DNA from: Gammaproteobacteria bacterium
GTDB taxonomy: Bacteria; Pseudomonadota; Gammaproteobacteria; Pseudomonadales; Pseudohongiellaceae
Reading direction: 5' to 3'
Length of the DNA: 64,000 nt
Assembly: GCA_030831165.1 (NCBI GenBank)
Contig: JAURLP010000024.1
Span: 1 to 64,000 of the forward strand
Below the pieces are notes generated by a model, which did not search any database, was not told the origin of the DNA, and saw nothing but the letters and a program-made list of their open reading frames with translations. The translations under genes were made by a program, and so were the position numbers. This document shows, piece after piece, positions 1-4,243 of the stretch (within the stretch, counting starts at the first letter, position 1; every line of letters begins with the position of its first letter).

Positions 1-215
1 GTCCACCGCCTGGCCCGATTGACTGTCCACCACCTGGACCGATTGACTGTCCACCGCCTGGCCCGATTGACTGTCCACCACCTGGACCGATTGACTGTCC
101 ACCGCCTGGCCCGATTGACTGTCCACCACCTGGACCGATTGACTGTCCACCACCTGGACCTATCGACTGCCCACCACCTGGTCCGATTGATAGTCCACCG
201 CCTGGACCAATTGAG
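1..215. repeat. 24-bp tandem repeat array, about nine units
   Basis: Units of 24 bp follow without gaps (boundaries near 24, 48, 72, 96, 120, 144, 168, 192) and the array continues past the left window edge. The first six units alternate between two versions (ccgcctggcc and ccacctggac cores), giving a 48-bp higher-order period that suggests recent duplication of pairs. The units nearest the gene start (144-215) are more diverged. The array encodes the GPGGGQSI octapeptides of the minus-strand gene. Confidence 0.9.
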
Positions 216-325
216 CAAGGCCCTCCAGGTCCAGTGGAGCCTACACAGCCTGAAGACTGAGCAAAAGTATTTGCTGATAAAGAAATAAAACAGAAAGCTA
301 ATATAGCTTTAATAATGTGGTGCAT
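1..325 (-). CDS. Exported glycine-rich octapeptide-repeat protein (3' end outside window)
   Basis: The gene reads leftward and runs off the window, so only its first 108 codons are seen. It starts at ATG 325-323 with an AAGGAG ribosome site six bases upstream. Residues 1 to about 22 form a signal peptide (MHHIIKAILAFCFISLSANTFA). A short linker with Cys27 and Cys37 follows. From about residue 39 the chain is a tandem octapeptide, consensus G-P-G-G-G-Q-S-I, seen about nine times. The repeat excludes the other frames as the real product: on the + strand the same DNA merely gives shadow ORFs. An exported, flexible, low-complexity protein is likely, perhaps surface or matrix related. I do not recognise a family and assign no function. 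It lies in an accessory patch next to an integrase remnant at tRNA-Leu. Confidence 0.8.
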   Translation of the reverse strand, partial: MHHIIKAILAFCFISLSANTFAQSSGCVGSTGPGGPCSIGPGGGLSIGPGGGQSIGPGGGQSIGPGGGQSIGPGGGQSIGPGGGQSIGPGGGQSIGPGGGQSIGPGGG

Positions 326-490
326 GGCATTCTCCTTGAATGAAAATTAATCTCTCCTGACCAACTTGCTCTTATTGTTACAGTAAGTCAACGATCTAAT
401 TTAGAACTATTGACCAATAACAGCCCAAACATGCTAAAGCAATCCAACCCAGCCATTTGCAATATCACCGATCTATACTACCTTTAAAGC

Positions 491-700
491 ATGCACATCC
501 TTCAATACTACGCAGCCTCCCCAGCCAATAAAGCCAAGATAATAGCCCTGGCTGAGTTGCTAGGCTGCGAATATAGGGCTGTAGAGAACATTATTGCTGT
601 GCAGGTCACTGATGATGCAACGTTGGCTAGGTTACAGTGCTATGTATTTCATTTTCCCCACATCATCCTATTCACAAAAAGCGTCTCTTATTGCATTTAG
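491..700 (+). CDS. Small hypothetical ORF, doubtful
   Basis: A 69-codon frame with ordinary-looking codon use over its first 55 codons (alanine, leucine and charged residues, for example AELLGCEY) but no Shine-Dalgarno sequence and a stop immediately upstream of its ATG. Its 3' end overlaps the convergent gene ending at 668. It may be a remnant of a longer gene in the accessory patch or pure chance. I recognise no family. Confidence 0.25.
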   Translation: MHILQYYAASPANKAKIIALAELLGCEYRAVENIIAVQVTDDATLARLQCYVFHFPHIILFTKSVSYCI

Positions 701-1066
701 ATCGCCATCATAATTTTCATGAAGCTGCCTAAATAAATCTCTATAATTCCTCTCGCCATTTATACTTATAGACAAGTACCCATAAAAATTGCCTTCTCGA
801 TCAACCATTTTTAGACCCGTCCCAAATCTACCCCAAGGGCTTTCAGAGTCAAATCTATTCCCAGCTCCAAACCTATTCCAGATTGATTCGGAATTGAATC
901 GATTCCCGTAAGTACCAAACCTGTTACATATGGAGTTGCTATCAAATCGCGAGCAGTCTAGACAGCCCCTATATTCATTACTGGAATTAAAAAGTAAAAT
1001 CTCGGCATTAGCCAAATGAGGGGCGAGTGCTAACAATAAAGAGATAAGTAGTTTTCTATAGTCCAT
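668..1066 (-). CDS. Exported SIWNRFG-repeat small protein
   Basis: This 132-residue protein has a clear signal peptide (about residues 1-21, cleavage after ANA) and then an imperfect repeat: SICNRFGTYGNRFNSESIWN, then NRFGAGNRFDSESPWGRFG. This is followed by a short domain (DREGNFYGYLSI). I recall small exported proteins with S-x-S-I-W-N-x-Y/F-G repeats as a widespread family without a known role. ATG 1066 has AAGGAT upstream. The gene follows the truncated integrase on the same strand, so it may be cargo of a former element. Its product is expected in the periplasm or outside the cell. Confidence 0.75.
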   Translation of the reverse strand: MDYRKLLISLLLALAPHLANAEILLFNSSNEYRGCLDCSRFDSNSICNRFGTYGNRFNSESIWNRFGAGNRFDSESPWGRFGTGLKMVDREGNFYGYLSISINGERNYRDLFRQLHENYDGDLNAIRDAFCE

Positions 1067-1105
1067 TATGAAGATCCTTGTTATTGATATACCTTCATGA
1101 TCTGC

Positions 1106-1495
1106 CTAATTAATTTTCTGGTCAAGTTTTGGAATGATGCTATAGGTGGGTAAATAGACTTGGATCAATACCCAACAGCAACTAGTTGATAAATAACTAT
1201 CCTGTGCTTCGGTTATTGTAGGAGCATTTGAAAAAACATTATCTGTAACAGACGTAACAAGTTTCTTACTAGCAGGAACAGAAATACTTTTTAATCTCAA
1301 TCCTAGCCAATAATCTTCTAACTTCGATGAGATATTTTTAGAAGCTATTTGTGCTTTTTGTGATGACTTGGTTCTGAGACTTATAACAATTCGATTAGTA
1401 CTGTAATAATTTCTTAAATCAAATGGGACAGCACGAGAAAAATAGAAAAAAGAATTCTTAATATAAGTGTATTGAGGATGTTTTTTGTCTACCAT
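1106..1495 (-). pseudogene. Truncated tyrosine integrase, N-terminal part only
   Basis: Starting at ATG 1495 (ribosome site GGAG six bases upstream), the product begins with Y-I-x-x-x-x-F-x-Y-F-x-R-x-V-P-x-D-L-R and ISLRTKS, the typical N-terminal arm-binding segment of phage and genomic-island tyrosine recombinases. Homology seems to fade near PTITEAQDSYL, at about residue 97. The frame then ends after another 30 or so unrelated residues, and the whole catalytic domain (R...H-x-x-R...Y) is absent. Intact integrases are about 350-420 residues. It starts 66 bp past the 3' end of tRNA-Leu, the usual place for an integrase that uses the tRNA as attachment site. It is almost certainly inactive. 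The frame is open upstream through the tRNA, which gives a false longer ORF. Confidence 0.75.
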
Positions 1496-1560
1496 TTTGT
1501 CTCCTATAACCCGAGTTTTAAGGAAAACTTCAAGGATTACAGAGACTTTAGAGAAGGTTG

Positions 1561-1645
<85 letters not shown>

Positions 1646-1656
1646 ACAGGCCGCGT

Positions 1657-1684
1657 ATTATACCCGTTAATCATGGCTAAGCAA
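1657..1684 (-). promoter_or_regulatory. Likely sigma-70 promoter of tRNA-Leu
   Basis: On the minus strand a perfect TATAAT (1662-1657) lies 11 bp before the tRNA 5' end, with TTGCTT (1684-1679) 16 bp further upstream. The discriminator is G+C-rich (GCGGCC), as is usual for stringently controlled stable-RNA promoters. Confidence 0.7.
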
Positions 1685-1696
1685 TTTATACTTGAA

Positions 1697-4243
1697 CTAA
1701 TCAGCTCGCAGCAATTGCAAGGGTTTTTGTTTTAGCACAGACATGGTTGCTGCTAATGCAGTCAGTACACTTAAGGCGGTAATAGCGATAATACTTAATG
1801 CAGTTATACTCCAGGAGAGCTGCCATATGCTGTCAAAAACGAACCAAGAAATAGCATATGAAATTAGCAAACTTAGACTGACGCCTACAAAAGCAGCAAA
1901 AAAACCGAGAATACCAAATTCAATCTGTACAATGTTTCTTACATCTTTGAAGTTAGCACCAAGTATTTTTAACAGGTTGATCTCCCAGAATCGGGATTTA
2001 ACTTCATAGCGGGCAATTGAATACAGCACAACCAAGCCAGCAAAAATAGCTAAATAAGCCATCACTTTAATGCCCCAGCTTATCTGATTGGTAATATCAA
2101 GAATGCTGGCAACAAGCTGTCCGACATTGATGATGGAAATATTGGGTAGGGTTTCTACTATTTCATTCTGAATGCCCAGATGCTGTTCTTCGGGCACATT
2201 GCTGACGGCAGCAATAAAGGTTTTTGGTGCGGGGTCCAGTACGCCGGGCTGAAATGAGATGAAAAAATTTGGTTGAAAACTGTTCCAGTCAACTGTACGT
2301 AAATTCATCACGCGACCACTGATGGGCACACTTTGTACATCAAAACTGATAACGTCACCCAGTTTGGCATTAATGCGTTCGGCGAAATCCAGTTCCAGAG
2401 AAATACCGGGTAGCTCATCAGAACCAAAAACCCATGGGCCATCCCATTCTTCACCTTCAACCAATTCTTCCGAGCTTTTTAGTTTGTCCTGGTAGGTTAA
2501 ATTAACAGAACGCCGACGCTGCATCTGTTCATCAGGTGTTTCCTCAAAGTCATCTACGATACCGGCATTGATAGATTCCATTCGAGCGCGCACCTGTGGA
2601 GAAACAAAGGCAAGGCTATGACCATAGCTGGCGAGTATGGTTTCCAATCCCTCAAGCTGGTCAGGTTGAATATCAAACATGAAAAAATCTGGAACAGAAA
2701 AATCATCGGGTTGGGATATCTCTTCCTGTAAACCTTTTTCTATTTGGGGTATTAGATTTATCAGCAATGAACCCAGACCTATTGCCATAAAACAGGAGAT
2801 AGCGCCCATGCGATTGCGATTTAAATTTCGTAGGGCAAGTTTTTGAGTCACGTTTGAATGATTAGAAAAGGAGCCGCAATATTTTAAAATGTACCAGGCA
2901 ACAAGGCCGAGAATAAAAATAGCGGCCAGAAAAGAGGCGATAAACAGACTGCCAATCAAAATGGAACTGGATTGCCAAATCGCCAGAAACCAGAACACGA
3001 TTAATATGGGCGCATAACTCATCGTATGGCGTTTCCAGTGAGGGAGTGATTTGCTGGGTTGAACCTTTTCATGAAACAGGGCAATAGGGTGCAAGTCATA
3101 AATCTTTGACAGTATAGGCAGACAGCAAATGACCGAACCAATGGTGCCCAAAAATAAAGCCAGGATAAATGAGCTCAGTTCCATTTCATTGACAAAACCG
3201 CGTGGCAGAAAATTTTCGAATAATCTGGGTAAAACCGGCATGGTAATAAAGCTGATGGCGCTGGCAATGACCGCACTGATTGAACCAAGTAGCACAATTT
3301 GCATCAGGGTCATGAGGTAGGCCTGTTTAGGCGTGCCGCCAAGGCACATCAGTATCGCCATATCTTTGAAGCGGCTGGTAAAAAAAGAACGGAACAGATA
3401 AGCGGCACCAACGCCTGCCAGGAACAGTGCAATAAGAGCAATGAGCCCGAGATAATCATTCATATAGGACAAGATGCGTCCCAGGTCTTCACTTCGCTCC
3501 TGATGGGTGGTCATACTGATACGGCGCGTATCGCCAAGTATTTCAAGCTCGGCTTGACGGAATTCGTCTTCCCAGCTATCCATATTCACATCTTCATTGA
3601 ACTTGTAGAAGCGAGAGTAATTGATGCGGCTGCCTAACTGAATTAAGCCAGTAGCCTGAATTTGCTCAAGCCCCATATAGATTGCCGGAAAATTAGACAT
3701 TACTGAAATAGTGCTGCTGGGGTCTACTTCAATCATGTCTGTGATGGTGTAATCCATAGCGCCGATCTTGATTGAGTCTCCGATATTTAAACCCAGTGTC
3801 AGCATCAGGCTTTCAGCAACCCAAATAGAATTACTGCTAAACAATTCCTGGCGCAATTCATCAGTTAAAACACCGCCTTCCCGCAAAACGAATTCGCCGT
3901 ATTGAGGATAGTTAGCATCAATCCCAATCAGCTGACTCATTCGAGAGGCGTCGTTGCCTGCGACCATGGAGAGAAAAGAAATCTGGTCAGAATATTCATA
4001 ATCAGCATTAAAAATATCATCGGCAAGCGTGAATTCGACTTCAGTCAGCGGGGCATTACCTGAAATTTGTGCGTCTGCTGTCAAGATCGCTCTGGAGTTA
4101 TTATTCAAATGGGTATCGATTGAATTTTTAAAGGAGTCCAGCGCGATAAAGCCAATCAGGCCAATAGACAGATTTACAATAAAGAAGAGACTGAAGCGGA
4201 AATTATTGCTGATTTCCTTGAAGGCAAGTTTTAGCCATAGCAT
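1697..4243 (-). CDS. ybbP: ABC transporter permease, YbbP / FtsX-like
   Basis: This 848-residue inner-membrane permease has an N-terminal membrane segment (about 13-35), a large periplasmic domain, then a first FtsX-type membrane bundle (about 262-380). Further segments lie near 405-460, a second periplasmic domain follows (about 510-715), and the C-terminal bundle is at about 722-835. That is the duplicated FtsX layout of YbbP, whose E. coli homologue is about 800 residues. The start codon overlaps the stop of ybbA by one base (TGATG), so the two are translationally coupled. The pair is thought to export or extract a lipophilic substrate, but the substrate is not established for this family. 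It is the last gene of tesA-ybbA-ybbP. Confidence 0.88.
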   Translation of the reverse strand: MLWLKLAFKEISNNFRFSLFFIVNLSIGLIGFIALDSFKNSIDTHLNNNSRAILTADAQISGNAPLTEVEFTLADDIFNADYEYSDQISFLSMVAGNDASRMSQLIGIDANYPQYGEFVLREGGVLTDELRQELFSSNSIWVAESLMLTLGLNIGDSIKIGAMDYTITDMIEVDPSSTISVMSNFPAIYMGLEQIQATGLIQLGSRINYSRFYKFNEDVNMDSWEDEFRQAELEILGDTRRISMTTHQERSEDLGRILSYMNDYLGLIALIALFLAGVGAAYLFRSFFTSRFKDMAILMCLGGTPKQAYLMTLMQIVLLGSISAVIASAISFITMPVLPRLFENFLPRGFVNEMELSSFILALFLGTIGSVICCLPILSKIYDLHPIALFHEKVQPSKSLPHWKRHTMSYAPILIVFWFLAIWQSSSILIGSLFIASFLAAIFILGLVAWYILKYCGSFSNHSNVTQKLALRNLNRNRMGAISCFMAIGLGSLLINLIPQIEKGLQEEISQPDDFSVPDFFMFDIQPDQLEGLETILASYGHSLAFVSPQVRARMESINAGIVDDFEETPDEQMQRRRSVNLTYQDKLKSSEELVEGEEWDGPWVFGSDELPGISLELDFAERINAKLGDVISFDVQSVPISGRVMNLRTVDWNSFQPNFFISFQPGVLDPAPKTFIAAVSNVPEEQHLGIQNEIVETLPNISIINVGQLVASILDITNQISWGIKVMAYLAIFAGLVVLYSIARYEVKSRFWEINLLKILGANFKDVRNIVQIEFGILGFFAAFVGVSLSLLISYAISWFVFDSIWQLSWSITALSIIAITALSVLTALAATMSVLKQKPLQLLRAD

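Follow-up and report, generated by a model that had tools for sequence, protein, structure and literature searches.

The window analyzed here, a stretch of 64,000 nucleotides from a gammaproteobacterial genome of the family Pseudohongiellaceae, opens with the N-terminal part of a gene for a putatively exported protein built from tandem glycine-rich octapeptides (octads). We consider it fairly probable that this gene is the cargo of a mobile element at a tRNA-Leu and that the octads form a rod of turns and short strands, with fold, export, disulfide and role all being predictions. The sequence-only reading of this DNA knew no bacterial family with such a unit; we found a wide one with this kind of unit, which carries no name.

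The Octad Gene at the Contig End

The gene occupies positions 2–325 of the minus strand, where the sequence-only reading had placed it at the window edge, and it contains the signal peptide and octads described there. Its ATG lies at 325, 108 codons are visible and the frame is open at the contig end. As read off the DNA, a Shine-Dalgarno sequence, AAGGAG (332–337, minus strand), precedes the ATG by 6 bases. In reading order the protein consists of MHHIIKAILAFCFISLSANTFA, QSSGCVGSTGPGGPC, SIGPGGGL and then repeated SIGPGGGQ. Residues 1–22, MHHIIKAILAFCFISLSANTFA (260–325, minus strand), are a predicted signal peptide by inspection and hydropathy, with a maximum of 2.69 (11-residue mean) at residues 4–14 and a T-F-A site, and on this basis the earlier view of an exported repeat protein was upheld; the route would be Sec export. 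We dropped a lipoprotein reading, as judged by what we take to be the lipobox motif: SSGC in the window and ARC in the relative from genome G1078 are no lipobox, and FAGC in the relative from genome G272 is borderline. The head of the array carries the pair C27-x9-C37 (215–247, minus strand), a predicted disulfide cap with the same spacing in exported relatives. The array itself (1–232, minus strand) is made of GPGGPCSI, GPGGGLSI, seven complete GPGGGQSI units and one cut unit, with a DNA period of 24 bp.

The window ORF thus has a signal peptide (by inspection and hydropathy), C-x9-C before the array and tandem GPGGGxSx octads, as expected of an exported octad-repeat protein. By its signal peptide and the absence of a W-x-R-N head, the visible N-terminal part falls outside the unexported sister branch described below. 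Base 1 of the window is also base 1 of the contig, and the array is interrupted there (the genome has 2.3 Mb in 39 contigs). Searches of this genome with the protein, 78 bases of the array and a degenerate 23-mer found no second piece of the array; as only one array place was found, any further units are either unassembled or unrecognized. Promoter or terminator signals showed no excess over shuffles at window positions 200–1700, and the other reading frames are likewise open across the array.

Recent Growth of the Array

Tandem Repeats Finder reported two arrays in the 64 kb, that of the octad gene (1–214; period 24, 8.9 copies, 88% matches) with a score of 330 and a second one with a score of 55. 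After its first unit, the GPGGGQSI run reads A A B A B A B, where A and B differ at two sites, both synonymous. Strict alternation (A B A B A B) covers the leftmost six units, the last of which has only 16 of its bases. Among the seven complete GPGGGQSI units, 2.0 of 24 bases differed on average, as compared to 6.3 in random synonymous coding with the codon usage of 31 long window ORFs; none of 10,000 draws was as low. This near-identity goes beyond the constraint on the peptide and supports recent growth of the array by tandem duplication. The earlier proposal of recent slippage or unequal exchange therefore stood with respect to the 24-bp unit, but its 48-bp super-period proved weak: with the cut unit left out, three of five lag-2 pairs were identical (permutation p = 0.16). 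As the A/B order by itself gives this value, duplication of a 48-bp dimer is likely, though unproven.

A tRNA-Leu Insertion Site

The 3′ end of a tRNA-Leu (1561–1645, minus strand), at position 1561, forms the boundary between conserved and variable DNA, and similarity to the window begins there in the four further genomes of the genus. On the conserved, ABC-transporter side the window matched all four genomes (blastn, 71–90% over about 1.4–1.5 kb), and on the variable side none of the four (blastn, E ≤ 1e-3). Among the four themselves, only L039 and L040 share 110 bases on the variable side. The place of the octad gene thus presents the picture of a tRNA-Leu insertion hotspot. The ORF adjoining the 3′ end of the tRNA is an N-terminal remnant of a DUF6538-type integrase (1106–1495, minus strand; Pfam PF20172, E 6.1e-15), which we take to mark a tyrosine integrase; it ends where the catalytic part would follow. 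A second repeat gene (668–1066, minus strand), with a signal peptide by inspection and NRF/SES repeats, had tblastn relatives in eight plasmid records. Between the two repeat genes lies a short ORF on the plus strand (491–700) without a Pfam match, possibly a gene fragment. A search of the window for a duplicated att site, made with the tRNA end, returned nothing but the tRNA itself. The sequence-only reading had recognized the gene at the window edge, but the insertion site, the integrase remnant and the neighboring exported repeat gene were absent from it.

The protein encoded at 668–1066 is composed of NRFGxYGNRFxSESIW units, and its best plasmid relative is from Microvirga (41%, E 6e-22). 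A weak relative of this protein is annotated as 4-fold beta flower, but the region matched by Pfam is a different part of the relative.

Putatively Exported Relatives

Relatives that combine the repeat with a signal peptide do exist. Complete exported proteins were found in Pseudomonas, Variovorax, an alphaproteobacterial MAG and the genomes G272, G512 and G1078. Of 382 stretches returned by scanning genome contigs, two were relatives, one in the alphaproteobacterial MAG (L008) and one in Pseudomonas mendocina FFL34 (L009), both complete and with signal peptides by inspection. With the Pseudomonas protein as tblastn query, one of 72,556 plasmid records matched, that of Variovorax sp. WDL1, and none of 50,697 phages; the Variovorax copy lies on a plasmid typed mobilizable. 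Searches by taxonomic rank returned only the window's own genome in its family (137 genomes; four matches listed, three antisense), its own genome and G272 in its class (369 genomes; four listed, false hits removed), its own genome and G512 in its phylum with a three-octad pattern (398 genomes; three listed), and its own genome and the sister-type G1342 in its order (390 genomes). G1078 was found among 289 genomes of another class of the window's phylum. Searches around the new members yielded only G272 in its family (38 genomes; four listed), only G512 in its order (48 genomes) and only G1078 in its family (four genomes). At these search sensitivities the exported octad gene is rare and patchy.

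Several other matches were discarded. Those in G038, G039 and G043 (L005–L007) are antisense to a PPPGGTTT-repeat gene. G355 encodes a GPGGFDF-type protein, G550 a protein of more than 1,000 residues with a short PGGGKTDS stretch, and in G258, G887 (STPLRTGP repeats) and G919 octads were absent from the frames read. Judged by match identity (37–43% within a 2029-aa frame), G899 was set aside. At L005, L006 and L007, which belong to three genomes of the window's family, a signal peptide and PPPGGTTT repeats are followed by a long repeat region.

The C-x9-C spacing occurs in six of the seven exported proteins, window included; G512 is without cysteine, and its membership may reflect convergence. 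Type A comprises the window, G272 and G1078; its proteins share C[IV]Gx[ST]GPGGPC, and those of G272 and G1078, both complete, carry a GPGNxWxxVP tail. Type B comprises Pseudomonas, Variovorax and the MAG, with W[RK][DN]C..PGGC, seven octads in each of the three and an RGLxxDTxRP tail. In the exported branch as a whole the number of octads is variable, from 4 to 10 visible.

The Pseudomonas octad gene directly follows a truncated gene (PF13541 and the start of PF01078) that we presume to be comM-like, and a recombinase gene (PF07508) lies about 2.5 kb further. The gene before this recombinase looks relaxase-like by eye and had no match in Pfam. In a reading by eye of the ORFs listed around the octad genes of G272, G512 and the MAG, a GC-rich genome in which ORFs are called poorly, none was recognized as an integrase, transposase or phage gene. 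The octad gene of G1078 also adjoins a tRNA-Leu, possibly by coincidence.

An Unexported Sister Branch on Plasmids and Prophages

A sister branch without signal peptide is found on plasmids and prophages of three bacterial phyla; the absence of the signal peptide was computed for six sequences with start codons of our choice. Its proteins have tandem GPGGGxYT or GPGGGxST octads, a W-x-R-N/D head and a SNIPPW-type tail (PYxSNIPPWPxFxxEL). Homology of the two branches is suggested by the low-complexity repeat they share.

Sister proteins are encoded on the viral contigs L033, L034, L036 and L037; the octad genes of L036 and L037 have terminase and portal genes nearby, that of L033 a serine recombinase gene. 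P0001 and two further patterns found no further members in the viral contigs, and a search with L036 found only L036 itself; L035 and the viral stretches L051–L066 other than L065 were judged non-members by eye. Using octad DNA as blastn query, 18 of 5,426 E. coli genomes matched. The octad gene adjoins or follows a phage integrase in all six E. coli loci read; where the flanks are long (four loci), it is bordered by a prophage, P2-like by gene names, on one side and by rcdA/ybjJ on the other. The same approach matched 21 of 72,556 plasmid records, of which 16 were read, with hosts including Enterococcus, Aerococcus, Weissella, Bacillus, Acinetobacter, Clavibacter, Glutamicibacter, Arthrobacter and Vibrio. 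The protein of G272 and that of L036 had no match among plasmids or phages, the G1078 protein had none among plasmids, and E. coli octad DNA had none among phages. As blastn with octad DNA found matches that protein searches missed, low-complexity masking may explain part of these null results.

The most surprising result of this study is the constancy of length in this branch: of the 23 complete copies (27 loci examined), 22 have head and tail 11.5–11.75 octads apart, although the plasmid and E. coli copies were found with octad DNA queries, which may favor long copies. The 23 copies form 14 clusters at 90% identity, each containing a copy of the common length. Length here means head to tail; a plain octad count gives 12 in Weissella, and altered units (GPYGG, GLGGG) in A. 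junii and E. coli ESBL 15 are missed by the counting pattern. The exception, E. coli RM10466 with 10.6 octads, has exactly one 24-bp unit fewer than EM06-18-14. The comparison of copy number between strains proposed earlier thus revealed a single-unit difference, but in two sister-branch E. coli strains and not in the window's own gene. The other four of the 27 loci are without the head, three being E. faecium copies cut next to IS1216 and one a copy at a contig edge.

Some of these loci showed features of their own. The Weissella cibaria plasmid pJY33 (L091, 2,365 bp) is annotated with a replication gene and the octad gene only; the annotated start of the latter (343) lies inside the octads, and MWIRN is encoded in the open frame at about 208. 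In Acinetobacter junii (L098) GPYGGLST or GPYGGMST replaces the GPGGG type in most octads, with an unchanged head-to-tail distance, and reverse transcriptase and DUF4062 genes lie near the octad gene. In the Enterococcus faecium plasmids L101, L103 and L104 the 5′ part of the gene is replaced at IS1216, and 8, 6 and 8 octads remain, respectively. Near an E. coli prophage octad gene, a HEC-01A/B-like pair of an AAA ATPase and a DUF4276 gene lies between repressor and integrase (L087, 5072–6805). The record of E. coli E300082 (L089), labeled plasmid pE300082_56, contains a prophage edge and chromosomal rcdA to gstB, and may be a misassigned piece of chromosome or a prime-type plasmid.

Purifying Selection on the Octad Peptide

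Minimum codon changes, counted at each octad position across 12 loci from both branches, came to 170 synonymous and 45 non-synonymous ones, where about one third synonymous would be expected; in this test every change counts as independent, and transitions are given a weight of 2. The synonymous excess was individually significant (p < 0.05) in 10 of the 12 loci, the exceptions being G1078 and G512 (p = 0.56 and 0.24, respectively, vs 0.04 for both with a looser register). A wider count in that looser register scored 22 of 23 loci, three of them near-identical E. coli copies, and 20 reached p < 0.05, Weissella and A. baumannii being the exceptions; A. junii was scored for length only. In the family, the octad peptide unit is under purifying selection. 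The window's own units are young and therefore hold few changes, only six synonymous and one non-synonymous, so that selection on them can hardly be judged.

Predicted Structure and Known Systems

AlphaFold2 models had a mean pLDDT of 56 for the window ORF (6 sequences) and of 63 for L036 (3 sequences). Both place a short strand in nearly every octad, about every 8 residues, and the L036 model has two helices in the tail. Foldseek returned no match for the window model and 12 non-significant ones for L036 (best E 3.3, probability 0.05), mostly what we take, partly from their titles, to be left-handed beta-helices and ice-binding proteins. The models give a structural hint only.

The window ORF and the octad relatives tested had no credible match in Pfam, NCBIfam, PHROGs or PADLOC, the last returning zero families for the window ORF and two octad relatives; we took the only listed match of the window ORF to phrog_21776 (E 0.082, residues 4–47) as chance. 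Full-text searches for octad strings found no published description of an octad protein, the one paper returned being on Chlamydomonas. The closest counterparts in databases are the RefSeq hypothetical proteins of the sister branch, from E. coli P2-like prophages and from Enterococcus, Weissella, Acinetobacter and Bacillus plasmids, which share tandem octads and a location on mobile elements with the window protein but have no signal peptide, no cysteine pair and a different tail (helical in the L036 model). The low-confidence models hint at a possible likeness to hexapeptide left-handed beta-helices and ice-binding beta-solenoids, in which a short strand and a turn recur along a rod, although the repeat of the hexapeptide helix is 6 residues and that of the octads 8. 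Bacterial collagen-like G-X-Y proteins are likewise rich in Gly and Pro, but GPGGGQSI breaks the triplet and has no Gly at every third residue.

Alternative Explanations and a Proposed Mechanism

The sequence-only reading had pointed to silk or elastic proteins, for which the GPGGX motif of flagelliform spidroin is the textbook parallel to GPGGG turns. Such a secreted protein would use its GPGGx turns to build an extensible disordered chain that forms fibers or a matrix, and the GPGGG motif, the signal peptide and a tandem array able to change its copy number speak for it, as does the likeness in secreted, tandem Pro-Gly-Gly turns. However, the spidroin unit is the pentapeptide GPGGX with neither C-x9-C nor a fixed S, and homology is unsupported; contiguous GPGGX pentapeptides are absent from the window protein, which has a period of 8 residues instead of 5, one S per unit and, in low-confidence models, short strands. 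Octad arrays are also small (4 to 12 octads counted), spidroin chains being far longer than octad proteins, and the nearly constant length of the sister branch in 22 of 23 complete copies is unlike an elastic fiber. The analogy was drawn from GPGGx, and with octads that change mostly synonymously in relatives we did not retain it; a silk-like protein appears quite unlikely. Even less probable is a meaningless low-complexity ORF held open by slippage: the DNA repeat and the open alternative frames over the array would fit, but not the Shine-Dalgarno sequence, the signal peptide, the shared cysteines and the synonymous excess in relatives.

That the gene is cargo for anti-phage defense or superinfection exclusion, acting in the envelope as the exported form or in the cytoplasm as the sister form, is an unlikely explanation on present evidence. 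It would suit the mobile setting and, by raw proximity, the defense-type genes near some sister genes, namely the HEC-01A/B-like pair in the E. coli prophage, an AbiU-like gene in G1342, the reverse transcriptase and DUF4062 genes in A. junii and HipA near the octad gene of A. baumannii. Mobile elements are rich in defense-type genes anyway; moreover, PADLOC matched neither the window ORF nor the two octad relatives tested, and apart from near-identical copies no partner gene recurred in the neighborhoods read. A short exported protein of near-identical peptide units could also be a repetitive precursor or a substrate of a modifying enzyme, yielding a peptide natural product or a cross-linked protein, but no candidate enzyme was seen by eye among the neighboring ORFs and tails and cysteines look structural, which makes this reading highly improbable.

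In the mechanism that we prefer, an element integrated at the 3′ end of the tRNA-Leu would have carried the octad gene as cargo. After signal cleavage, the C-x9-C disulfide would form in the oxidizing periplasm or outside the cell and cap the array. Each octad would supply one turn (GPGGG) and one short strand (xSx), and stacked octads might form a regular, probably beta-solenoid-like rod, as low-confidence models suggest. The rod would end in a short tail outside the repeat, which reads GPGNxWxxVP in the two closest homologues that are complete; the window copy is cut before its tail. The array has grown recently, by tandem duplication of 24 bp and probably also of 48 bp. On plasmids and prophages the unexported form, with its different C-terminal tail, keeps a nearly fixed length and would likewise be an accessory protein. 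As for function, an accessory binding or scaffold protein that serves the mobile element, here in the cell envelope, seems the likeliest. More tentatively, GPGGG octad proteins from different phyla could together make up a class of mobile-element proteins that has so far escaped description, all folding into a Gly-rich rod of octads; like a molecular ruler, the unexported rod might be kept to about 11 octads, and window-type proteins might be exported, disulfide-capped versions acting in the envelope.

Small tandem-repeat genes are readily written off as low complexity and are masked in sequence searches, which keeps such families out of view. With relatives across three phyla, a wide octad family without name or known function has now become testable. 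To it the window contributes an exported form with a recently grown array, and the sister branch a length that is nearly constant although its DNA gains or loses a unit between strains. The family poses a concrete and testable question: what ordered structure would call for some 11 GPGGG octads, and what makes unrelated mobile elements carry such a protein?
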